IMG/VR virus record: IMGVR_UViG_3300028738_000083 | Location: 1 to 21,391 of that record | Origin: a virus | Direction: 5' to 3' (one strand) | DNA: 21,391 nt | Shown here: in pieces, positions 1,947 through 19,148 of the stretch | How the letters are laid out: every line of letters starts with the position of its first letter | Numbering within the stretch: the stretch's first letter is position 1 | Position numbers and translations under genes: made by a program | Notes under the pieces: model-generated | Databases searched by the model: none | Told to the model about the DNA's origin: nothing | The model's input: only the letters and a program-made list of their open reading frames with translations

Positions 1947-2899
1947 GACAGCAATGGCAGTTCCTGCTTACCTCGCAAATTTACCGTGGTTTGTGGGCGA
2001 TGCATCCCGGACAGGCCATGTCTCAGGGAGCAACCATTCAGCAATTAATGAACCGTGACTGGGCTGGATCTGATCAGACTGAAGATCTGGACAAAACCCG
2101 TGGCCGTTCCGCTCTTCCTGTTGCTGTGATATCAGCTGCCGGACATTTGTTTTCAGGATCCGAATCGTTCGATAAGGTTCCCCAGGGATCAACCGCGGTA
2201 ATTCCACTAAAAGGTACCATGCTGAAATACGGTACCATGTGTACATATGGAACCGAAGAAATTGCCGGACAAATTTTGGAAGCCGGTTCTCACCGTAATA
2301 TTTCATCCGTAATTATCGACATCGATTCGGGTGGAGGTGCTGTTGATGCAGTGGCGCCAATCGTTCAATCGATTATCAAGATCAGGAACGAAGCCAAAAA
2401 ACCTGTTGTTGCCAGCGCCGATTTATGTGCGAGTGCCGCCATGTGGGCAGCTTCGGCATGTACCCGCATAGTTGCCAATAACGAAATTTCTGCTGAATTC
2501 GGTTCTATCGGAGTAATGATGAGCTTCATGGATATCATTCCATACTACGAAAAGGAAGGTTTCAAATTCCATTCTATTTATGCTCCTGAGTCAGATTACA
2601 AAAACAAGCCTTTCCAATTAGCACTGGAAGGTAAGTACGAAGAAATTCAGAATGAAGAGCTTTCACCGCTTGCCCTTTCTTTCCAGAATGCCATTAAAGC
2701 CAACCGCGGTTCGAAACTTAATCTGGAAGTACCTGGATTACTCAATGGGCGAATGTTCTTCGCCAAAAATGATAAAGATAATTCACTTAACGCCAAAGAG
2801 GTGGGTTTGATTGACGAAGTTGGAACGTTTGACCTGGCTGTCAGGTTAGCGCGAGACTTAGCCAGATCAGCCTTTGTGGAAAAATACGTTCAATCTTAA
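1928..2899 (+). CDS. S49-family (SppA-like) prohead protease
   Basis: A serine peptidase of the SppA/ClpP fold, expected to act inside the prohead on the capsid protein's N-terminal region and on itself. The core spans about residues 88-310: strand VIPLKG (91-96), the oxyanion-region signature IDIDSGGGAVD (130-140), nucleophile Ser169 in CASAAMW, the FGSIGVM segment (191-197), and DYK with Lys225 as the probable general base. The Ser-Lys spacing of 56 residues fits the family. The first approximately 85 residues are an extension, including a segment with LTSQIYRGLWAM that resembles the N-terminus of other phage S49 enzymes. At 323 aa it is the usual length for a single-domain phage enzyme. 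An in-frame TAG lies 42 nt upstream and 1928 is the only ATG between. The capsid gene starts 12 nt after the stop. Confidence 0.88.
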   Translation: MRDTVLRQQWQFLLTSQIYRGLWAMHPGQAMSQGATIQQLMNRDWAGSDQTEDLDKTRGRSALPVAVISAAGHLFSGSESFDKVPQGSTAVIPLKGTMLKYGTMCTYGTEEIAGQILEAGSHRNISSVIIDIDSGGGAVDAVAPIVQSIIKIRNEAKKPVVASADLCASAAMWAASACTRIVANNEISAEFGSIGVMMSFMDIIPYYEKEGFKFHSIYAPESDYKNKPFQLALEGKYEEIQNEELSPLALSFQNAIKANRGSKLNLEVPGLLNGRMFFAKNDKDNSLNAKEVGLIDEVGTFDLAVRLARDLARSAFVEKYVQS

Positions 2900-2910
2900 A
2901 TTTTACAAAA

Positions 2911-4356
2911 ATGTTTAAACACGCACTGAGCATGGTTTTAGGCTTTTTGGGAATCGAAGCATTTGCGAAAGCAGATGGTAAATCGACACTTTCCGAAGAG
3001 CAGAAAAAACAGCTTTCCGAAGAATACGGAGAGCAGTTTGTATCCAAGTTCGAGGCTGATCTGGCAAAATTTGAAGCTAATGGAGAAGATCCACTACGCG
3101 CCCGCCTCGAAGTGAAACTGAACAATCTTGATGCTATCGTTGCAAAGCAAGAAAAAGCTCTGGAAACAATGAAAGCCGAGAATGTAACCCTTAAAGGACA
3201 GGTTGAAAAACTTGCCATTGTAACTGAGCCGGAACCGGCTGCTGAATACGTTTCGAACGAAAAAGGCAAAAAAGTTTTGAAATTCAAACCAAACATGGCA
3301 CATCAGCACAATAAAATTGCTGCTGATTACCTTGCTGGAGATCACCGCGTACTTGCTGCCGGTGAAACAATCACTGTCGATTCGGTAATTTCCGAATTTG
3401 GCGCTTTGATTGACTATGTGAAGCTGGACATGATTGGCCAGATCTTCCAGGGCTTTGAAACTGCTCAGTATTTGAACTGGAAACGCGAAATTCATTCGTA
3501 CAAGGCTGAAAAATCGTTGATCACTTCGGTGATTCAGCAATTTGTTCCAAAATGGACACCGCTGGGTGCCACCTCATTCACTCCGCTCACAATTCCATTG
3601 CGCCGGTTTAAAATCAACGTTCCAATTACTCCAGCTGATGTGAAAGATTGGATTTTCGGAATGTACGACGAATCGAAAGATTTGGAACAGCATCCGATTA
3701 CTCAGTATATCGTTAATCAACTGATTGCCCCAAAAGCAATGGAAGATTTGGATGATATTTGCGCAAACGGTGAATTTGACGAGCTCGTATGGGCTAATGT
3801 TGATGATGGTGATGCTGGTCAGGATCCTTTGAAATCAATTGATGGTTTCCTTACTCAATTGAGTAAAGACAAAGCTTTGGGTGCAGCCAAAAAAATGAAT
3901 TTCATTCCATTGGCATCGGTTATCACCGACGCTAATGTTTTGGCACAGGTGAACTTGTTTGTTGATTCGATCGACAAAAAGTACAAACGCCGCGACATGC
4001 CAGTGTTCATTGACCCAACTTTATACCGTATGTACAAACGTGCATACAAAAATAAATTTGGCGAAGGTTCTTCTGATCCTCAATTTGGTGGTGATGTGAT
4101 TGATTATACCCGCAACCGGCTTGTTCCAATGTACAACCTTACCGAAAAGGGTGCAATTTTTACCACTCCAAAAGAAAACTTCATCGGTTTGCGTCACATT
4201 AACGAACCAGGAGCTACCAACCTTAAAATGAAATCGTACGATTACGATGTGCATGTAATTGGTGAATTCCGTTTCGGTATTGGTTTTGCAATTGCTGAAG
4301 CTGTATTCTATTTCATTCCTGATGAAGTAGTTGATTCGGCCGGTGCCGGTGTATAA
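2911..4356 (+). CDS. Major capsid protein (HK97-like) with N-terminal scaffold-like segment
   Basis: 481 aa. About residues 20-115 are charged, rich in Glu, Lys and Ala and likely coiled-coil (the stretch around QKKQLSEEYGEQF and the heptad-like segment near LDAIVAKQEKALETMKAE). This matches the delta/scaffold domain that HK97-type capsid proteins carry and lose to the prohead protease encoded just upstream. From about residue 125 onward the sequence is globular. A long segment with IPLRRFKINVPIT (about 232-244) and a Gly/Phe-rich C-terminus (GEFRFGIGFAIAEAVFYF) resembles capsid proteins of Bacteroidales phages. A mature subunit of roughly 360 residues is inferred. No separate scaffold gene is visible. 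A hairpin follows the stop codon, as is common after highly expressed capsid genes. Confidence 0.82.
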   Translation: MFKHALSMVLGFLGIEAFAKADGKSTLSEEQKKQLSEEYGEQFVSKFEADLAKFEANGEDPLRARLEVKLNNLDAIVAKQEKALETMKAENVTLKGQVEKLAIVTEPEPAAEYVSNEKGKKVLKFKPNMAHQHNKIAADYLAGDHRVLAAGETITVDSVISEFGALIDYVKLDMIGQIFQGFETAQYLNWKREIHSYKAEKSLITSVIQQFVPKWTPLGATSFTPLTIPLRRFKINVPITPADVKDWIFGMYDESKDLEQHPITQYIVNQLIAPKAMEDLDDICANGEFDELVWANVDDGDAGQDPLKSIDGFLTQLSKDKALGAAKKMNFIPLASVITDANVLAQVNLFVDSIDKKYKRRDMPVFIDPTLYRMYKRAYKNKFGEGSSDPQFGGDVIDYTRNRLVPMYNLTEKGAIFTTPKENFIGLRHINEPGATNLKMKSYDYDVHVIGEFRFGIGFAIAEAVFYFIPDEVVDSAGAGV

Positions 4357-8331: not shown

Positions 8332-10012
8332 TCTGGACCGTCCGGACGTTGAAGTCCGTTACATGAACTGGTTGGCGCAAACCAGTGGAATAATGATGCC
8401 CGGATCACTTTATTTCATTGGTGGCCGGGGATCGACCAAAACAACCGCGTTTCAGGCTGAACGGCTTCAGGAAATGGTTTACGATATGCCGGGAGCTCCT
8501 GTTGCCCTGGTTGCTGATACGTTTACAAATCTTCAGAAAAATGTTTGGCCAACCATGCAGGAAGGTTTGCGCCTCCTGGGATGGGAAGAGGACATTCATT
8601 ACGTGGTTGAAAAAGAACCACTCGAACATTGGAAAGAAAAGCCAATTAATATTATCTCCAGCTACAAACACACCGTTATATTTTTCAATGGTTTTAACCT
8701 CACTTTTATTTCACTTGACCGGCCATCAACAGCAGCCGGAAAATCTTACGTTGCCATTATTGGTGATGAAGTAAAATTCTTCAGAGAAGATAAGATTGCC
8801 AAATTAACCAAAGCCGTTCGCGGATTTAAGGTCAGATACGGGCAATCTCCATTTTATCGCTCGCAGACTTTTACCACCGACATGCCGAATAAGAATTTGA
8901 TCGGTGAGCATGACTGGATCCTGAAGCATCGCAAAAGAATGGACGTTAAACAAATCGTTCGGATCCTGAAAGTTGGATTTGTTTACAATGACATCAAAAA
9001 AGAATATGTAATCGCTAAAGATTCAGGCGACCGCAAAGAATTGGCAATTGTCAAGCGTAAACTAGATAGATGGGAAGCGCGTTGGAGAAAGGTTCGAAAG
9101 AAATCTGTATTCTTTTGGGTGGCTAGCTCATTCATCAATGCCGATATTTTAGGAGTTGATTTCTTCTCTGAAGAGTTCGAAACAGATCTGGAAGACGTTG
9201 CACAGGCAATCCTTTCACTGAAGCCAAAGTTAATGGCCGGCAATCGCTTTTATTCAAAGCTTACAGAAAAGCATTTCTATCAGGATGGGGCCGATGCACA
9301 CTGGAGTGACTATTTCGGGATCCGGGATACAGAAGATTGCAGGATCCTGGCTAAGTTGGATAAGACAAAAGCCATTGATGCCGGTATGGACTTCGGTAAC
9401 ATGATGAGCATGATCATTGCCCAGGATGGAAAGAAACGAGACTATAATTTACTGAAAGAGTTATATACATTACCACCTAATTCAATCAGACAGTTAGCAG
9501 ATCAGTTCATTGAGTACTTCAAACCACACGAAGAGAAGACTCTTAATCTGTACTATGACCGTGCTGGTAACAACTACAACAAATCAGGACAGGACCTTGC
9601 ATCTCAAATAAAGAAAGCAATTGAAAAGAATGAGGAAGGCAAACGTACTGGCTGGAAGGTTATACTTCGGTCAATTGGACAGGCTACCATTCATTCAAAC
9701 ACTGAGTATAACTTCATGATCGATCTGCTATCTGAGACTAACACTGCTCTGCCTGTTGTGTGTATTGATCAGTTCAACTGTCCATGTCTCAAGTCTTCGC
9801 TTGAGAAGGCACCTTCAAAGGTTGTTACACGTAACAATCGTAAGATGATTGTCAAGGATAAGAAGAGTGAAGGCCTACCAATTCATAAGCTACCCAAAGA
9901 CTCAACCAACTTCTCTGATGCGTTCAAGTATCTGATGTGTCGCAAACAATGGCTCAACCTAAACAAGGGCATACGCAAGCAAAGCTCAGGTGATTTATCC
10001 ACGGTGGGATAA
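8309..10012 (+). CDS. Terminase large subunit (ATPase-nuclease)
   Basis: 567 aa. It packages DNA into proheads. The ATPase part carries a Walker A, GGRGSTKT, at 38-45 (Lys44) and a Walker B, VAIIGDE, at 148-154 (Asp153, catalytic Glu154). The RNase H-like nuclease part has candidate metal ligands Asp361 (AGMDFG), Asp417 (YYDRAG) and Asp537 (FSDAFKYL). I choose ATG 8309 (MTKPTK) because the frame upstream has low-complexity, out-of-phase reading of the previous gene; it gives a 23-nt overlap. From about base 9420 (residue 371) onward codon choice changes markedly (GAG, AAG, AAC and ACT favoured, GCC absent), although both halves remain in frame with no stop, suggesting an intragenic recombination junction close to the start of the nuclease domain. 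Confidence 0.9.
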   Translation: MTKPTKIDLDRPDVEVRYMNWLAQTSGIMMPGSLYFIGGRGSTKTTAFQAERLQEMVYDMPGAPVALVADTFTNLQKNVWPTMQEGLRLLGWEEDIHYVVEKEPLEHWKEKPINIISSYKHTVIFFNGFNLTFISLDRPSTAAGKSYVAIIGDEVKFFREDKIAKLTKAVRGFKVRYGQSPFYRSQTFTTDMPNKNLIGEHDWILKHRKRMDVKQIVRILKVGFVYNDIKKEYVIAKDSGDRKELAIVKRKLDRWEARWRKVRKKSVFFWVASSFINADILGVDFFSEEFETDLEDVAQAILSLKPKLMAGNRFYSKLTEKHFYQDGADAHWSDYFGIRDTEDCRILAKLDKTKAIDAGMDFGNMMSMIIAQDGKKRDYNLLKELYTLPPNSIRQLADQFIEYFKPHEEKTLNLYYDRAGNNYNKSGQDLASQIKKAIEKNEEGKRTGWKVILRSIGQATIHSNTEYNFMIDLLSETNTALPVVCIDQFNCPCLKSSLEKAPSKVVTRNNRKMIVKDKKSEGLPIHKLPKDSTNFSDAFKYLMCRKQWLNLNKGIRKQSSGDLSTVG

Positions 10013-10021
10013 ATAAAAGTT

Positions 10022-10104
10022 ACCCCTATTACATTAAAAGAGGGGCATGGTATCCATGCACCCCCAACCTAAAACAGGTTGGATTTACGAACCTGAGGGT
10101 CAGG
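10022..10104 (+). other. Run of hairpins in non-coding DNA after terminase; possible structured RNA or 3' element
   Basis: Three adjacent stems are visible. GGGGCATGG (10042-10050) pairs with CCATGC-A-CCC around TAT. CCAACCT (10064-10070) pairs with AGGTTGG (10076-10082) around AAAAC. CCTGA (10092-10096) pairs with TCAGG (10100-10104) around GGG. A weaker alternative pairs CCCCT (10023-10027) with AGGGG (10041-10045), competing with the first stem. No T tract follows, so this is not a classic terminator. An open frame of 62 codons overlaps it but has no features of a real gene. The rest of 10105-10534 is AT-rich with no gene that I can support. Confidence 0.45.
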
Positions 10105-10280
10105 CGGTTTATCATATTTCCGGCCATCGCGACCCTTTGCGACTGCAAGCACGATTGAGGGCGGGCTCGGAGTCAACCTTCAAACAACAAAAAATTGAAA
10201 ATTTTTTAGTTGGTTTTTGGTCTGGTTATCAATAATTTAACTGGTTTCGGTTTTTGCTGGATGGCGATTTGTTGACCGGT

Positions 10281-10383
10281 TGATTTTGGAAGTTGCCCCG
10301 AATGCGATTTTTTGAGGTTGATTTTGCCGGATGATTTTTGGAAGTTGCCCCAGATAAATTTTTCAGGTTTATGATTTTGCTTG
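10281..10383. repeat. Imperfect tandem repeat, two units of about 51 bp
   Basis: Two consecutive units share GGAAGTTGCCCC flanked on each side by TGATTTT-like tracts: unit 1 begins at 10281, unit 2 at 10332. T-rich strand asymmetry is strong and continues on both sides. It lies in the non-coding stretch between terminase and the accessory operon. Could be a degenerated regulatory or recombination site; no function can be assigned. Confidence 0.6.
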
Positions 10384-10534
10384 TTATTTGAAATGGTTCT
10401 TAATAGAGAGGCTGATAAATGGCTTTAAATCGCTTAACTCAATGTCTGATCTGATTTTTGATGAAAACTTTTTTTTCGTGCAATTGATAAAAAGCCAGTT
10501 GTTTAAATGTGTCAATTTGTTTTTAATATGCTGA

Positions 10535-10565
10535 TTTGTAATACTTTGAATGAATAATAAATTTG
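10535..10565 (+). promoter_or_regulatory. Consensus Bacteroidota promoter for the accessory operon
   Basis: TTTG at 10535-10538, a 19-nt spacer and an exact TAnnTTTG box (TAAATTTG, 10558-10565) match the known Bacteroidota sigma-factor consensus. Transcription would begin near 10572, giving a leader of about 95 nt before the gene at 10667. Confidence 0.65.
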
Positions 10566-10637
10566 CACAGGTCAATAAAAAGATGTAAATTAGTATTAGA
10601 AAATGAGAGGGAAACCAATCTGATTCTATCCAAATCC

Positions 10638-10651
10638 AATTTGTTTAACAT
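10638..10651 (+). promoter_or_regulatory. 14-nt leader element, copy 1 (AATTTGTTTAACAT)
   Basis: AATTTGTTTAACAT ends exactly 15 nt before the start codon at 10667. The identical 14-mer ends 15 nt before the next gene's start (second copy at 11183-11196), and the bases between also resemble each other, both ending in TCATG. Likely a translation or regulator site. Confidence 0.55.
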
Positions 10652-10666
10652 TTAAAAATTAATGTC

Positions 10667-11140
10667 ATGGTAGTAAAAAAAGTTACTGCGCCTTTTCAGG
10701 TGCAAAAGGGAGAGAACACCCCAGAATTAGAGCAAAAAGCTTTGCCAGTTTCAACCGAAACACCGGAAGCAAAAGAACCCACACCAGAGGAACTAAAACA
10801 AGTTATCGAGGACCTTAACAAAAGGCTTTCAGCAATTCCCACAGACCTAAAAACACGGGTCGAGTATTTCAACAAAAAAAATGAATTGATCCGCAGACTT
10901 TCAAAGCTTGACACAGACAAAGAAATTCTTTCCAATCACCTGGACAAACTTTCTGAAATTGCTGCAGCAAATGAATTTGAGAGTGAAGAGTATTATCTGA
11001 ACATCGAAGGCGGTAGCCAGTACAGTAAAAAAGCAGTTTACACGCTAAAAAATCCGGTTATTATTGGTGAACTCATTGCCTTTATTATCGGAAAGATTGA
11101 CAGCAAAAGGGATTCATTGAAAAAGGAAATTGAAGCCTAA
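10667..11140 (+). CDS. Hypothetical accessory protein, 157 aa
   Basis: Not recognised by name. About residues 1-45 are a polar, Pro/Glu-rich, probably disordered lead. Residues about 40-100 are a helical, coiled-coil-like region (EELKQVIEDLNKRLSAI and ELIRRLSKLDTDKEIL). A C-terminal globular part has GGSQYSKKAVYTLKNPVIIGELIAFI followed by a charged helix. Proteins of this shape occur beside ArdC-like and RadC-like genes in Bacteroidota mobile elements, as here. It is the first gene after a consensus promoter and is followed by a strong hairpin. A role in DNA protection or mobile-element maintenance is an inference from neighbours only. Confidence 0.65.
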   Translation: MVVKKVTAPFQVQKGENTPELEQKALPVSTETPEAKEPTPEELKQVIEDLNKRLSAIPTDLKTRVEYFNKKNELIRRLSKLDTDKEILSNHLDKLSEIAAANEFESEEYYLNIEGGSQYSKKAVYTLKNPVIIGELIAFIIGKIDSKRDSLKKEIEA

Positions 11141-11148
11141 GTAAAAGC

Positions 11149-11175
11149 GAAAAGGGGGTATCCCTCCCCCTTTTC
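11149..11175 (+). terminator. Perfect 10-bp hairpin, terminator or attenuator
   Basis: GAAAAGGGGG (11149-11158) pairs perfectly with CCCCCTTTTC (11166-11175), with a 7-nt loop. The four T residues are inside the stem, so termination may be partial. It would lower expression of the ArdC-like and RadC-like genes relative to the gene before it, or function in both directions. Confidence 0.7.
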
Positions 11176-11182
11176 AATCCAA

Positions 11183-11196
11183 AATTTGTTTAACAT
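11183..11196 (+). promoter_or_regulatory. 14-nt leader element, copy 2 (AATTTGTTTAACAT)
   Basis: Identical to 10638-10651 and at the same distance (15 nt) from the start codon of the gene at 11212. It begins 8 nt after the hairpin at 11149-11175. Two exact copies at identical spacing argue for a functional site rather than chance. Confidence 0.55.
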
Positions 11197-11211
11197 CAAT
11201 AAATTGACATC

Positions 11212-11634
11212 ATGAGCAAAGATACAGAATCAACACGGAAAGAACAATATTTGAAGAAAAGAAAAGAGTTAATTGAGCTTTCTCGATTTGTCCGGATGGG
11301 CGTAAAATCGGGAGCCTACGACAGTGTTAACGAAGGACTAAAAGAAATCTATCAGGAGACTAACTCCGAGATTGAAGAGTTTAAAACTTTTTGGCAATGG
11401 AAGGACGAAGGCGCCACAGTTCGCAAAGGACAAACAGCCTTTTTAATCTGGGGGCAACCTCGCAAGGGTGAACAGGTACCCGAAGGAGCAAACGAGCCAG
11501 AGGAGTATAAATATTGGCCTGTTTGTTACCTGTTTGCAAATACACAGGTTTACAAACCAGAACCGGCAGCAGAACCGGAGACACAGACAGAACCAGAGCC
11601 AGAACTTGAAACCGTTTCAGGCGATGAATACTAA
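11212..11634 (+). CDS. ArdC N-terminal-domain-like protein, 140 aa
   Basis: The middle of the protein (about residues 62-108) matches the pattern of the ArdC/DUF1738-type N-terminal domain: a WQWKDEGATVRKGQ phrase, then the strand FLIWGQPRK, then a YWPVCYLFANTQVY strand where the family has the aromatic-rich FNVEQ-like motif. That domain binds single-stranded DNA in antirestriction proteins. The metallopeptidase half of full ArdC, with its HExxH motif, is absent here. Residues 111-140 are an acidic Pro/Glu-rich tail (about ten Glu), suggesting a flexible end. It overlaps the RadC-like gene by 11 nt, so the two are probably translationally coupled. Together they suggest a role in protecting or processing incoming or single-stranded DNA, which is inference. 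Confidence 0.6.
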   Translation: MSKDTESTRKEQYLKKRKELIELSRFVRMGVKSGAYDSVNEGLKEIYQETNSEIEEFKTFWQWKDEGATVRKGQTAFLIWGQPRKGEQVPEGANEPEEYKYWPVCYLFANTQVYKPEPAAEPETQTEPEPELETVSGDEY

Positions 11635-12073
11635 TATTCCAACTTTGGCCGAAATTGAAATAATTTACCGGCCAAAATATAAAGCATCCGAACTGCCTAA
11701 AGTGGTTACATCTGCCGATGCATACAGCTATTTAAAAGATATTTTTCCAAGTCTGGATTATCGGGAGTTTTTCTATATCCTATGCCTGAATCGAAATAAT
11801 AACGTTTTGGGTTTCTGCCAAATTTCTGCAGGTGGTTTATGTGGTACGGTTGCCGATGTTCGAATGATTATGCAAACCGGATTGAAATCAAATTCATGCA
11901 GTTTAATTTTAAGCCATTGCCACCCGTCAGGAAATCTAATCCCGAGCGAAGCCGACAAAGATTTGACAAAGAAAATCAAGGAGGCCGGCAAAGTGCTAGA
12001 CATTGCAATCTTAGATCATCTTATTATTACTTCTGAATCTTATTTTTCGTTTGCGGATGAAGGTTTAATGTAA
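11624..12073 (+). CDS. RadC-like JAB/MPN domain protein, 149 aa
   Basis: Contains only the C-terminal JAB1/MPN domain of the RadC family, without the helix-hairpin-helix N-terminus of chromosomal RadC. The JAMM-type metal motif is complete: HCHPSGNLIPSEAD gives His-x-His, seven residues, Ser, two residues, Asp. The usual Asn between the two His is Cys here. The strand LNRNNNVLGFCQISAGG and the segment DHLIITSESYFSFADEG are also typical. Short RadC proteins of this kind are common in Bacteroidota plasmids, conjugative elements and phages; their biochemical role is unsettled. I chose ATG 11624 because it gives the normal N-terminus with an 11-nt overlap. A longer upstream reading lies out of phase over the preceding gene. 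Confidence 0.85.
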   Translation: MNTNIPTLAEIEIIYRPKYKASELPKVVTSADAYSYLKDIFPSLDYREFFYILCLNRNNNVLGFCQISAGGLCGTVADVRMIMQTGLKSNSCSLILSHCHPSGNLIPSEADKDLTKKIKEAGKVLDIAILDHLIITSESYFSFADEGLM

Positions 12074-12088
12074 TTATTTTCAATCGCA

Positions 12089-12112
12089 GGGGTGGCTTAT
12101 ATGCCATTCCCC
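12089..12112 (+). terminator. Weak hairpin after the RadC-like gene
   Basis: GGGGTGGC (12089-12096) pairs with GCCA-TT-CCCC (12103-12112) around TTATAT, with two unpaired T. No T tract follows, so it is a possible 3' end for the accessory operon rather than a clear terminator. The rest of 12113-12287 is non-coding and shows no other structure that I can support. Confidence 0.4.
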
Positions 12113-12287
12113 GGCGCGCTCAAAAAGGAGTTCCGTGCCGCCAGGCTTCGCCTTATTTTCTTCGTCAATGTTTCCTTCCTTTGTCAGTAAACCGGCACTC
12201 TACCGTATTTATTTATCTGATTTTTGACGATTAAATTCTCTCACTAAATCCCAATTCAAATTTAACCTTACAAAAAGGGGCTTCTGC

Positions 12288-12319
12288 TTGACTCGTATTG
12301 TTAAATCGCCGTATATTGC
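12288..12319 (+). promoter_or_regulatory. Putative promoter for the secreted protein/lipoprotein pair
   Basis: TTG at 12288-12290, 21-nt spacer, TATATTGC at 12312-12319 (two mismatches to TAnnTTTG). The start codon is 20 nt downstream, so transcription would begin just before it. Fits a separately expressed cargo pair. Confidence 0.45.
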
Positions 12320-12339
12320 AGAAACCATAAATCAATCAC

Positions 12340-12735
12340 ATGAAAAAACTATTCTTCATTATCCTTCTTTGCAGCTTTTCTGTTTTGCTTCAAGCTCAGA
12401 AAAATTACTTATTTGAATTGAATGGTAAAAAATTAGCTAAATCACAAAAATATGCACAAAAATCATCCGGTGATTATTTAAGGCAGGCAGGAACCTGCTA
12501 TCTGGTTGGAATAGGTGTTGCAATTACGGGATCTGCAATTTCTGTAATTGACATGAATAGCGGTGAAATCAATAATTCAGCTGCAATTATTGGAGGTACA
12601 ACGGCTGTTGGTGGATTGGTACTAACAATTATCGGACATTCTAAATTAATAAAGGCAGGTAAAGCACTTGATGCAGAGCGCAAAATTACCTTAGTTCCTT
12701 CATCTTCTGGATTAGGACTTGCACTTAAATTTTAA
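12340..12735 (+). CDS. Secreted/membrane hypothetical protein, 131 aa
   Basis: A signal peptide is clear: MKK, a hydrophobic core (LFFIILLCSFSVLL) and a likely cleavage near LQAQ at residue 20. After a basic stretch (residues 25-50) come two hydrophobic segments at about 52-70 and 81-99, separated by the polar loop DMNSGEINN. The C-terminus ends with a short strand LGLALKF and a terminal Phe, as in many Bacteroidota envelope proteins. Function unknown. It is 5 nt from the lipoprotein gene downstream, so both go to the envelope together. In a prophage, such a pair could be a lysogeny-expressed surface change, or part of a lysis system; the sequence does not decide. Confidence 0.7.
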   Translation: MKKLFFIILLCSFSVLLQAQKNYLFELNGKKLAKSQKYAQKSSGDYLRQAGTCYLVGIGVAITGSAISVIDMNSGEINNSAAIIGGTTAVGGLVLTIIGHSKLIKAGKALDAERKITLVPSSSGLGLALKF

Positions 12736-12740
12736 TTGAG

Positions 12741-12965
12741 ATGAATAAAATATTGATAGTCATAGTTGTTTTATTTTTGGTGTCCTGCAGTAATGGCAAT
12801 GAAATTTCTCAATTAAAAGAAAATCAGAAAAAGCTCGAAGCCAGAATTGATAAGCTCGAAAAAGATATGAAGGAACAAATGAAAATTGATTCAATTCTGC
12901 TCGAAATTCAAAAGCCACAGCCCGGATCACTTCTTTATGAACTCGATCACAAAAAAAATAGATAG
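12741..12965 (+). CDS. Small coiled-coil lipoprotein, 74 aa
   Basis: A type II signal peptide with lipobox LVSC places the lipidated Cys at residue 16. The mature part is a charged coiled coil (ISQLKENQKKLEARIDKLEK and on to about residue 50) with a short Pro-containing tail. The size, lipidation and coiled coil resemble both Lpp-type structural lipoproteins and outer-membrane spanin subunits, but no holin or endolysin gene is visible, so the lysis reading is weak. Translated right after the secreted protein gene (5 nt gap) from the same presumed promoter. Confidence 0.75.
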   Translation: MNKILIVIVVLFLVSCSNGNEISQLKENQKKLEARIDKLEKDMKEQMKIDSILLEIQKPQPGSLLYELDHKKNR

Positions 12966-12971
12966 TACATA

Positions 12972-13001
12972 TTGTTATTCAATTATGTATTCATACATTT
13001 G
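12972..13001 (+). promoter_or_regulatory. Consensus Bacteroidota promoter for the gene at 13169
   Basis: TTG (12972-12974), a 19-nt spacer and an exact TAnnTTTG box (TACATTTG, 12994-13001). The start of transcription would fall near 13008, on the first arm of the repeat system at 13006-13168, giving a leader of about 160 nt. Confidence 0.6.
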
Positions 13002-13005
13002 TAAC

Positions 13006-13168
13006 GCTTACACAACACAACAGGGTTTCGGAATTCGCCTTTAATGCAATTTCAACGAGATTTTTAAATATAGAGCTATCGGGATCAACTCTCTTTCGGG
13101 TTTCGGCCTGTTCGTGGTTGTGTAAGCACCCGGTGGCTCTTTTTGTTTCATTTAATGCTTACACAACC
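13006..13168 (+). promoter_or_regulatory. Three-arm inverted-repeat leader (possible switch or operators)
   Basis: Arm A, GCTTACACAACACAACAGG (13006-13024), arm B, containing GGTTGTGTAAGC (13116-13127) with CCTGTT just before it, and arm C, TGCTTACACAACC (13156-13168). B and C pair perfectly over 13 bp with a 27-nt loop, and C ends directly at the ATG at 13169. A and B also pair over 11 bp perfect plus an extended imperfect part (to 13107). A:B and B:C are mutually exclusive. The predicted transcript starts at arm A. The words also act as three DNA boxes, two direct and one inverted. Confidence 0.65.
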
Positions 13169-13399
13169 ATGAGTAAAAAACAAGCTTTCAAACTGATTTA
13201 CAAGGTAGAATCAGAAAAATTAATCGAAGTCGTTAGAGTAGCCTGGGAAGTAATTTCCGAAATGGGCCTGGAACCCGAAACAATCTCCCTGCCTGATGGC
13301 CGGGCAATTCCCTGGCACGCCACAGCAGCTCACCAGTTCGCCGCTGAAGGAAGTATTGACGAAGAAAAGTTTATTGAATGGTCTCTCTCAGAACAATAA
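13169..13399 (+). CDS. Small hypothetical protein, 76 aa
   Basis: Not recognised. An amphipathic helix (residues about 5-28, AFKLIYKVESEKLIEVVRVAWEV is too regular for chance) is followed by a polar hinge and a Trp-rich part including IPWHATAAHQF and FIEWSLSEQ. The start MSKKQ at 13169 immediately follows the third arm of the repeat leader; the same frame is open further upstream to 13118 (MCKHPV...), but that would read through the repeat arms. Its own consensus promoter and elaborate leader suggest regulated expression. The next gene starts 16 nt after its stop and is probably co-transcribed. Confidence 0.55.
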   Translation: MSKKQAFKLIYKVESEKLIEVVRVAWEVISEMGLEPETISLPDGRAIPWHATAAHQFAAEGSIDEEKFIEWSLSEQ

Positions 13400-13415
13400 T
13401 TCATAAATTTGAACT

Positions 13416-13814
13416 ATGAAAGAACTCCACGAACAAGCATTTGAATTGGTTGAACGCATCTTTAAAGATTGTGATCATGAATTAAAACAGTTCACTTATG
13501 GAGATAGAAGCCATGTTAAAATTTCTGCTCCTCAGGTTTTTATTGATCTGTTAACTGAAGGCTACAAAAACGCTTTCGGAATATGGCCACATAGATCTCC
13601 TGAAGGAAAAATTTATTTCCGTGATATTGAAGTCATTCCAAATTATGAAATGGAAGTTGTTTTATTTCATAAGAATTATCCTGAAATCCAGGATCAGCGT
13701 TTGATCTATAAGGTAAAGTTAAATTCAGGTAAAAATGTTAGGCCAGGAGAATTCAATAAAATTCATTTATCAAAAGACGAAAACGGGAATTTAACTGCAA
13801 CTTCTTTTTTTTAA
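13416..13814 (+). CDS. Hypothetical protein, 132 aa
   Basis: Not recognised. The N-terminal approximately 25 residues form a likely helix with Cys and acidic residues (ELVERIFKDCDHELKQF). Then a segment with aromatic and Pro residues (GIWPHRSPEGKIYFRDIEV) and several strands (MEVVLFHKNYPEIQ, RLIYKVKLNSGK) suggest a small alpha-beta domain. No signal peptide or membrane segment. It sits between the 76-aa gene (16 nt upstream) and a strong terminator, so it closes the accessory block. Confidence 0.65.
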   Translation: MKELHEQAFELVERIFKDCDHELKQFTYGDRSHVKISAPQVFIDLLTEGYKNAFGIWPHRSPEGKIYFRDIEVIPNYEMEVVLFHKNYPEIQDQRLIYKVKLNSGKNVRPGEFNKIHLSKDENGNLTATSFF

Positions 13815-13868
13815 GTTCCAGATAGGCCTGATATACCTCCATTTGATCCTACAAAACTTTATTATTTC

Positions 13869-13894
13869 AAAGCAGCTCCCGGGCTGCTTTTTTT
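13869..13894 (+). terminator. Strong rho-independent terminator closing the accessory block
   Basis: AAAGCAGC (13869-13876) pairs with GCTGCTTT (13883-13890) around TCCCGG, followed by four more T residues. It separates the accessory genes from the glycosyltransferase/portal run. Confidence 0.88.
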
Positions 13895-13938
13895 GTCCTT
13901 CACCGCTTACTTTACTTCCGGTACCTTTAAATAAAAAA

Positions 13939-14613
13939 ATGATCGCACTGGTACCCACCTGCAACCGTCCCGAATTGTTTGCCCGGCTTGTATCCAGGCT
14001 CGAAGGATTTGAAGTGATTGGATTCGTCAACAATTCGACGCCTGAAAATGAAGAACAATATTTAAAACTGAATTTACCTGAAGATACAACCTTAGTTTTT
14101 ACCGGCATTAAAGGCGAACCAAAAGCTTGTCATGTAATGATGTTTAAAATCATGCTACAATTTGTTCACGATGAATGCCTGGTGATTGAAGATGATGTTT
14201 TTCCCTGCTCAAACTTTTACGATGAACTTCAAAACCGGATCAGCACACTGAAAACTGAGACTGATCACTTCGTTTTAAGTCCGATTTATCTGCCAGAACG
14301 CAATTCCGATTTTTACACTGGAGGCAAAAGTAAGGCCGTAAAGATTGGCCCTTACCAGTTCATTGATCAGGCCTGGGTTGATGGCAATTTTTACATGACC
14401 TCCGCAGTTTTGGCCGCGATGAAACAATGGTTATCCGGAAAAGTGAAATCCTATCCGGCATCGAGCGGTATAGGAAGGCGAAATTCATTTGAAATTTACC
14501 GGCGAAAATGGAAAATGTACACTGCAATACCCACGCTGGTAGAACATTTAGATCAGGATAGCGTGATGTTTGGCGACCGTCGCAAAGAAATCCCATTGAT
14601 CGCCAAGTTTTAA
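13939..14613 (+). CDS. GT-A-like glycosyltransferase, 224 aa
   Basis: The N-terminus IALVPTCNRPELFARLVSRL is the opening strand-helix of GT-A enzymes, with TCNRP where nucleotide-sugar binding starts. LVIEDDVFPC at 81-90 carries the acidic pair that serves as the DXD-like metal site. The segment QAWVDGNFYMTSAVL (about 144-158) and VEHLDQDSVM (201-210), where other phage GT-A enzymes have a His-containing acceptor-side motif, complete the pattern. No membrane segment, so it should act in the cytoplasm. The substrate is unknown; a virion glycoprotein or host surface sugar is possible. Start at 13939 is chosen because the longer reading from 13843 runs through the terminator. Different from the enzyme at 5084 in length and in acidic motif (EDD versus NDD). 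Confidence 0.68.
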   Translation: MIALVPTCNRPELFARLVSRLEGFEVIGFVNNSTPENEEQYLKLNLPEDTTLVFTGIKGEPKACHVMMFKIMLQFVHDECLVIEDDVFPCSNFYDELQNRISTLKTETDHFVLSPIYLPERNSDFYTGGKSKAVKIGPYQFIDQAWVDGNFYMTSAVLAAMKQWLSGKVKSYPASSGIGRRNSFEIYRRKWKMYTAIPTLVEHLDQDSVMFGDRRKEIPLIAKF

Positions 14614-14657
14614 AATCTGTCCTTTTACCCTCGATTGCCGCGCTATAGCTTAGTATC

Positions 14658-14930
14658 ATGAAAGTTTACGAAGCTATAGACCAAATGCGGACCATCTCAA
14701 AACAGGGTGGCGAATTCTCCATGACTTTTATGGGTTACTCGGAAACTGCCGGAAAATCTGACGGTCCGGTATCGGTCGACCGTGCCAGGCTTCGCGCCCG
14801 GCCAAACTCCGATCAGAACCGGAATGCCGAAATGATGGAAGCTTACACCAACCTTGCCACCGGAGAAGCCCGCCAATTCTATCAGCCTTTACTCATGATT
14901 TTTAACGGACAAAAAATTGATTTGGAATGA
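14658..14930 (+). CDS. Small portal-associated hypothetical protein, 90 aa
   Basis: I recognise the type as a small conserved protein directly before portal genes in Bacteroidales phages, without a known function. It begins with a helix (KVYEAIDQMRTISKQ), then FSMTFMGYSE, then a basic stretch VDRARLRARP at about residues 40-49 and a short C-terminal strand (YQPLLMIFNGQKIDLE). Stop and next start overlap as ATGA with the portal gene, indicating translational coupling. It could act as a portal assembly or head-completion factor, which is only positional inference. Confidence 0.65.
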   Translation: MKVYEAIDQMRTISKQGGEFSMTFMGYSETAGKSDGPVSVDRARLRARPNSDQNRNAEMMEAYTNLATGEARQFYQPLLMIFNGQKIDLE

Positions 14931-18287: not shown

Positions 18288-18730
18288 TCCGGATCACAGA
18301 TTTAAACGACCTGCTTACCTCTATGGTATCCGATATTTCCGGTGTGGCCGGATTTGTATTGGTTGCAAACGAAAATCACCTGGTTAAACGACTCTCTGAT
18401 AAAACAGGAGTTTGGCTGGGTGTAACCATTCCTTCTGCTGATCCTGAAACGGTGAATGAAGACAATGTGGCTGAAAATAATATTGTCTGGATTTTTATTG
18501 TGGAGAAGAAAGATCCCGGGAGCATGGACGCTACCGATGAACTGGAGCACTATCAAAAAATTCAGGACATTACTGCAGCAGTTAAAAACTGGCTCCGCGA
18601 TAAGAAATTGGAAGGAAACGAATTCCTTGAATATCTGAACCTGCAGAGCATCCATACCGATCCTGAATACCAGTTTGGCGGATGGAACGGCTGGAGCATT
18701 AATTTCAATTTCGACACTGACGGATATTAA
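18284..18730 (+). CDS. Possible tail completion / neck protein, 148 aa
   Basis: An alpha-beta protein. It has a helical opening (IRITDLNDLLTSMVSDI), strands AGFVLVANENHLVK and WIFIVEKKD, a long charged helix near YQKIQDITAAVKNWLRDK, and a C-terminal strand ending NFNFDTDGY. This topology, and the position between connector-like proteins and tape measure, resemble tail-terminator or neck proteins, which are generally small alpha-beta folds. The assignment is inference. One base separates its stop from the next start. Confidence 0.5.
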   Translation: MIRITDLNDLLTSMVSDISGVAGFVLVANENHLVKRLSDKTGVWLGVTIPSADPETVNEDNVAENNIVWIFIVEKKDPGSMDATDELEHYQKIQDITAAVKNWLRDKKLEGNEFLEYLNLQSIHTDPEYQFGGWNGWSINFNFDTDGY

Positions 18731-18731
18731 T

Positions 18732-19148
18732 ATGGAACTGGCACTTGTCCGCAAAGAATTCGTTAAGCAGATCCTGCAACAGGAAGGCAAAGAGTTGCAC
18801 GATAACCAGGGAAAGGCTATTGCGAAGCTGCTGCACTTTCACAGTAACCGGCTGATGGATACACGGCCATTTCGTGTGGAGTCAGAAGATGCCATGGACG
18901 GACAGTTTACCACTCAAATAACTGCTTACGGTCGTTTCCTGGATATCAAGCCAAAGAACAGGGTGATTAAGGAGCAAAGTAAATACACCCACTGGCGCCA
19001 ACGCAGACGAACAAAAGCTTTCCCGATTTACAACCGGTTTGTATTCGGGCATTATTATACAATCGCTTACCGGCTCATGTATGGGCTGACAGAAGAAGTT
19101 GCTGAAGGAATTAAGAAACAATTTGACACGCTGAACAATGGAAAATAA
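18732..19148 (+). CDS. Hypothetical tail-region protein, 138 aa
   Basis: Basic, helix-rich protein with no membrane segment. The N-terminal part has FVKQILQQEGKELHD; the middle carries several His/Arg residues (LLHFHSNRLMDTRPF), and the C-terminal half has the unusual HWRQRRRTKAFPIYNRF, then YYTIAYRLMYGLTEEVAEGI. I chose ATG 18732 since the longer reading from 18675 runs out of phase within the preceding gene. Its last 11 nt overlap the tape measure start, so translation is probably coupled. Could be a neck or head-tail joining protein; not recognised. Confidence 0.55.
   Translation: MELALVRKEFVKQILQQEGKELHDNQGKAIAKLLHFHSNRLMDTRPFRVESEDAMDGQFTTQITAYGRFLDIKPKNRVIKEQSKYTHWRQRRRTKAFPIYNRFVFGHYYTIAYRLMYGLTEEVAEGIKKQFDTLNNGK

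Follow-up and report, generated by a model that had tools for sequence, protein, structure and literature searches.

The window analyzed here, i.e. the whole stretch of 21,391 nucleotides, corresponds to positions 1 to 21,391 of the phage record IMGVR_UViG_3300028738_000083. In the related phages L051 and L052 the terminase gene lies close to the counterpart of the gene found at 14658, so that the segment between 10.0 and 14.6 kb can be considered an accessory region. Inside it lies a self-standing unit formed by a promoter, a leader of 160 nt, two small genes encoding products of 76 and 132 aa, and an intrinsic terminator (Table 1). The accessory genes (10012-14658), located between the terminase and portal-side genes, include ArdC N-terminal-like, RadC-like, membrane, lipoprotein and glycosyltransferase genes; another -33/-7 promoter match is present at 10536-10565, as well as a strong intergenic hairpin with a GGGGG/CCCCC stem, terminator-like on the minus strand, at 11148-11176. 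Elsewhere in the window, TTACAACC/GGTTGTAA recurs many times, in either orientation, within the non-coding segment 575-760, which resembles an iteron or operator cluster and for which Rfam gave no match. A similar cluster built on GGTTACAA was seen in the related phage L062 (around positions 18700-19000), which also carries an apparent diversity-generating retroelement, with a reverse transcriptase adjoining two genes that share SSGFGFS...SVGSRLC C-termini (12832-13782 with 11699-12621; read by eye, without a family search).

Table 1. Features of the leader and its operon (positions in the window).
Feature	Position	Strand	Remarks
Promoter	12972..13001	+	-33 TTG 12972-12974, 19-nt spacer, -7 box TACATTTG 12994-13001; matches Bacteroidota consensus
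Arm A, predicted RNA 5' end	13006..13024 (core 13006-13016)	+	pairs with B
A:B helix, continued	13028..13037	+	partner 13097-13106, as predicted by folding the RNA as far as arm C
S1 helix, 5' strand GAGCUAUCGGG	13073..13083	+	pairs with 13129-13139; equivalents with different sequence in L059, L060, L164 and L065
Arm B, common partner	13107..13128	+	13107-13127 with A, 13112-13128 with C
S1 helix, 3' strand CCCGGUGGCUC	13129..13139	+	directly after B
U-run UUUUU after S1	13140..13144	+	terminator-like or pseudoknot loop; U-rich stretch after S1 in every member
Arm C	13156..13172	+	pairs with B; covers ATG at 13169
76-aa gene (MSKKQAFKLIYKVES...)	13169..13399	+	family of unknown function kept beside the leader; homologues in L003, L004, L005, L007, L059, L060, L164 and L065
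Second gene of the unit, 132 aa	13416..13814	+	ORF; function unknown
Intrinsic terminator closing the unit	13869..13897	+	stem 13869-13890, then T-run; conserved with L007 2332-2368

The promoter is of the sigma-ABfr type and was identified by its match to the -33/-7 consensus reported for Bacteroidota (PMC7366714). Homology with a near relative, L007 (= L014), which is located in a contig of a Prolixibacteraceae MAG that also has a tyrosine recombinase, starts exactly at the -33 box (12972), the DNA further upstream being unrelated; L007 has the two boxes at the same spacing, although the spacer itself is mostly different. The distance from the -7 box to arm A is short and fixed, 4 nt in all the leaders identified (3 nt in L065 if an extra C is counted in the arm). 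From the promoter and this constant spacing we infer that transcription starts at or beside the first base of arm A, where a first-pass annotation of this DNA had placed it; a start downstream of the arm, which according to that annotation would refute the proposal, is not suggested by anything in the sequence, with the reservation that the start site is unproven by experiment. Neither this fixed distance nor helix S1 or the terminator stem at 13869-13890 had been pointed out in that annotation.

The same annotation described a leader with three arms, in which B would be complementary to both A and C. The core word GCTTACACAAC is found in A (13006-13016) and again in C (13156-13166), and its inverted counterpart GTTGTGTAAGC in B (13117-13127). 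Pairing of A with B was as described, with 11 exact bp and an imperfect extension (13006-13024 with 13107-13127, two bulges). That of B with C exceeded the 13 exact bp originally given, reaching 14 bp (13115-13128/13156-13169), and 17 bp in full when one G.U pair, involving the U of the AUG, is included (13112-13128/13156-13172). Arm C is indeed at the start codon, but rather than ending directly at the ATG it spans it. B cannot serve both partners at once, so that the A:B and B:C helices are mutually exclusive. Dinucleotide shuffling of the 204-nt region, repeated 20,000 times, never yielded an 11-mer present twice forward and once inverted, and an exact inverted repeat of at least 14 nt appeared in 1 of 1000 shuffles; the whole window has no other exact inverted repeat of at least 13 nt within 150 nt. 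The fold of the leader region gave a z-score of -2.8.

Searches for described elements gave no candidate. With Rfam 15 (4227 families), the best hit for window positions 12700-13500 had an E value of 1.4, far below gathering scores, and the complete L059, L060, L065 and L007 sequences gave no match. A search of the open-access literature did not return any description either, and the first-pass annotation likewise could not assign the element to a described family; absence is not proven by this. Several candidates were discarded. When the leader was compared by Blast with phages and plasmids, only chance promoter-like matches came up, and exact arm patterns in viral contigs (L006) turned out to be a coincidence in coding DNA of an unrelated phage. 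The 18 bases in common with L012 and L013 were attributed to chance; weak matches in 36 of 140 Prolixibacteraceae genomes were short coding or unrelated segments, and L066, L096, L200 and L201 are not leader-bearing relatives. A covariance model built from two close sequences identified nothing new in 393 genomes, the model being too narrow. A coding leader was ruled out by three indels between the window and L007 within an otherwise 93% identical block, and a leader peptide (MLTQP) by its lack of conservation, the mini-ORF ATGCTTACACAACCATGA (13155-13172) existing only in these two sequences. An HDV-like ribozyme, which has a P1 of about 7 bp at the 5' end and a nested double pseudoknot, was rejected because in most members A:B has at least 13 bp, and with its extension it reaches up to 29 bp.

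The leader of L003 is identical to that of the window. In that of L007, three indels and roughly a dozen substitutions are spread over promoter and leader, with B, C and S1 unchanged. In its arm A the extension has been rewritten (from CACAACA to TCAGAATG) and pairing with B retained, a result that random 8-mers equal in 6% of trials; changes in arm A between the two sequences preserve A:B better than random only with P of about 0.05-0.12. This close pair alone would not decide whether A:B is conserved. Distant homologues were identified in G053 (L059) and G013 (L060) with a profile of the 76-aa protein, and in G147 (L065) with a wider profile, while the phage L164, with a leader resembling that of L060 and a gene of the 76-aa family behind it, was found through a DNA motif common to L059 and L060 and not via the gene. 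Four lineages could thus be compared (window/L007, L059, L060/L164 and L065), each with arm words of its own: A GCTAGAATACTATAA, B TTATAGTGTTCTAGC, C GCTAGAACACTATGG and S1 GGACCGCG/CGCGGTCC in L059; A GCGACATCATTACAA, B TTGTAATGGTGTCGC, C GCGACACCAT and S1 GAATCGAGGG/CCCTCGATTC in L060; A CGCTAAACAATCGT, B ACGATTGTTTAGCG and C CGCTAAACAATCGTAAT in L065. Arm C covers or abuts the ATG in the distant members. Besides the window, a phage of Bacteroidota, the device occurs in other phages and in one bacterial island.

The first ten core positions are paired, in A:B as well as in B:C, throughout the four lineages. Nine of the 12 core positions have changed in all three strands, the double changes preserving both helices, and this is the kind of compensatory change that the first-pass annotation had named beforehand as support. 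Relatives keeping only one pair of arms, which it had considered a refutation, were not found: every leader-bearing relative keeps both. Where A and C differ within the first ten positions, the change is always C to U opposite G (position 8 in L059, position 7 in L060 and L164), with a further C-to-U difference between A and C at position 11 in L007. These data bear on the alternative raised in the same annotation, namely three operator boxes for one repressor. In this reading A (forward), B (reverse) and C (forward) would be bound by a DNA-binding repressor, with the word diverging along with it. The arms do represent one word of 10-15 bp per lineage, and A overlaps the predicted start site. 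However, the word is not palindromic, over the first ten positions the boxes differ only by changes that preserve pairing through wobble, A:B outruns the common box in all members, S1 is conserved and unrelated to the box, and C sits on the start codon. Operators fit the data less well than RNA pairing, and we consider them very unlikely. The wobble pattern and S1 also point to RNA rather than to an element acting as DNA, such as an invertible segment, a MITE or an aba-like self-immunity site. The inverted and direct repeats beside a phage cargo gene recall such elements, and aba, which extends over the bstA start, depends on its own direct repeats (PMC8585504). Nevertheless, the orientation is the same in all members, no further copy exists in the window or in the genomes searched, no BstA-like protein is present, and the 76-aa product has no family match, all of which leaves a DNA-level element as barely conceivable.

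Helix S1 recurs in the lineages with different sequence, as 8-12 contiguous bp or, in L065, as 17 bp with one bulge. Its second strand begins 1-4 nt after B in L059, L060, L164 and L065 and is followed there by a U-rich run. The helix cannot be nested with either A:B or B:C and crosses both; its stability ranges from -15 to -26 kcal/mol, and its loop measures 45-60 nt. In 2000 shuffles, helices of this kind appeared 8 times for the window, 16 for L007 and never for L060 and L164; S1 alone is not rare in shuffles of L059 (152/2000) or for the contiguous part of L065 (679/2000). Apart from the helices, only a short A/U-rich motif before S1 is common to the lineages. A descriptor of the architecture (B:C of at least 9 bp, S1 of at least 7 bp next to B, A:B of at least 9 bp, and a start codon) gave 144 distinct matches in 2.76 Mb of loci; six had a -7 box, all of them the leaders described here, while none of 16 matches in 0.53 Mb of Markov resamples had it. 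The thresholds were set after seeing the members, so that these figures reflect specificity and not an independent discovery rate, and only four independent lineages are available. The conservation of A:B and B:C through sequence change, the recurrence of S1 and the fixed positions of the parts are shown by this sequence comparison, and what would be expected of a cis-acting leader with mutually exclusive helices, namely two exclusive pairings of one strand, both maintained through sequence change, is observed. This indicates that the leader is a real, so far unnamed RNA switch; the exclusive A:B and B:C pairings proposed initially are supported by the distant members, although neither pairing nor regulation has been proven by experiment.

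Pseudoknot-free folding of the RNA before C is transcribed gave a probability of A:B (10-bp core) of at least 0.97 in all members, provided that the RNA starts at the first G of A or no more than 4 nt before it. Once C is included, the energy difference between A:B and B:C ranges from -8.6 to +2.7 kcal/mol, so that both states are reachable. Trimming of the 5' end moves the balance toward B:C by 5 to 10 kcal/mol over at least six bases in most members, and the prediction for the window depends strongly on the start site, with the probability of A:B falling to 0.06 when the RNA is one base shorter. The leader is therefore predicted to be bistable and sensitive to its own 5' end, with the caveats that ViennaRNA ignores the pseudoknot and that the favoured state differs between members. 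As A is the 5' end, an RNA whose first bases were lost or masked would be driven into the OFF state.

In our opinion, with a probability of roughly 0.8, the leader (160 nt) is a structured RNA, conserved and acting in cis, which is bistable between A:B and B:C and controls the small operon downstream, an interpretation reached without RNA or expression data. Transcription would begin at or beside the first base of arm A and, as B emerges, A:B is predicted to form, leaving the start codon free. S1 would then compete, crossing A:B and B:C, either as a pseudoknot stacked on the B helix or as a terminator hindered by a long A:B. Once transcribed, C may displace A from B, and B:C would hide the A-rich initiation region and the AUG, turning translation off. 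Bacteroidetes lack a Shine-Dalgarno sequence and use instead an A-rich region before the start codon (PMC7366714); since C covers such a stretch, hiding it should lower initiation.

S1 may thus either lock the B helix by stacking or terminate transcription, and neither has been shown. In the second case the leader could be primarily a transcription attenuator, S1 and the U-run being an intrinsic terminator, the long A:B an antiterminator and B:C a second lock on the read-through mRNA. The stability of S1 and the U-rich run after it in every member are compatible with this, together with an A/U-rich tract before S1 in most of them, and in the window the extended A:B leaves about 13 nt to span, from which we infer that A:B and S1 can hardly coexist. 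On the other hand, the S1 loop is unusually long for an intrinsic terminator, the U-runs are weakened in L007 and L164 (CUUUU, UCUUU), A:B and S1 have no strand in common as they would in textbook attenuators, and a terminator scan made no call at S1. Attenuation is a real possibility that we do not favour over the translational switch. Going one step beyond the latter, the leader could represent a new class of switches that read their own 5' end, in which the choice of start site or the trimming of 1-6 bases flips the predicted state and S1 acts as a crossing lock, perhaps as a terminator, carried with a small protein family by Bacteroidota phages and islands; this extension is speculative.

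The six leaders found (window, L007, L059, L060, L164 and L065) all precede an operon of the 76-aa family, whose gene is first in five of them and second in L065, after a gene for a two-TM protein. The products of this family are charged and have 69-91 aa. In the window, the 76-aa protein is charged and has a predicted mixed alpha/beta fold (AlphaFold model with pLDDT 82), and neither it nor the 132-aa product has a match in Pfam, PHROGs or NCBIfam. It could be argued that the small protein binds the leader and fixes one of its states, as the constant association would suggest, but this association is partly built in, given that three members were found through the gene (L164 was found by the DNA motif), the model of the protein has no convincing structural relative, and L004 and L005 carry the gene without the leader. 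The leader is consequently dispensable for the gene as such, and autoregulation appears rather unlikely. With respect to the surroundings of these genes, in L004 a RadC-like gene and the 76-aa gene form a single continuous open frame (2338-3231), and the island adjoining the L065 leader (L103:12089-17574) contains Hachiman-like genes (a DUF1837-like protein and a helicase) and ThiF-like genes, as judged by eye.

A cis-acting translational switch of this type resembles several known systems without coinciding with any of them. As in translational riboswitch platforms (anti-sequestor/sequestor), one strand takes part in two exclusive helices and the second would hide the initiation region, but no conserved ligand-binding core is seen in the lineages compared, the first partner is the 5' end of the RNA itself, the additional helix S1 crosses both, and the leader is not in Rfam. 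In ermC-type translational attenuators the arms alternate and the initiation site is hidden by the default pairing. Both traits are predicted here, while there is no conserved leader peptide and the mini-ORF at arm C is missing in L059, L060, L164 and L065. Transcription attenuators with intrinsic terminators share the succession of a helix and a U-run, differing in the long loop of S1 and in the absence of a strand common to S1 and A:B. The mRNAs of type I toxins (hok, or AapA1 of Helicobacter pylori; PMC6733600) also form successive co-transcriptional structures around the start codon; here, however, the product is a charged protein of 69-91 aa and not a small hydrophobic toxin (a two-TM protein is encoded by the first gene only in L065), no antisense RNA is known, and B:C is the late structure. 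Finally, aba of the BstA prophages likewise bears repeats and lies where a prophage cargo gene begins, but it is reported to act at the DNA level and consists of 63 bp with terminal direct CCCGCC repeats (PMC8585504); in the leader it is RNA pairing that is conserved.

The comparison alone supports two rival helices built from three strands that change together; evidence for a switch is seldom so direct. To our knowledge, only a small number of regulatory RNAs have been described in Bacteroidota phages. The leader offers a compact and testable model of start-codon control for a phylum that initiates translation without Shine-Dalgarno sequences, and it points to an unstudied family of small proteins that is kept alongside it in phages and in one defence island.
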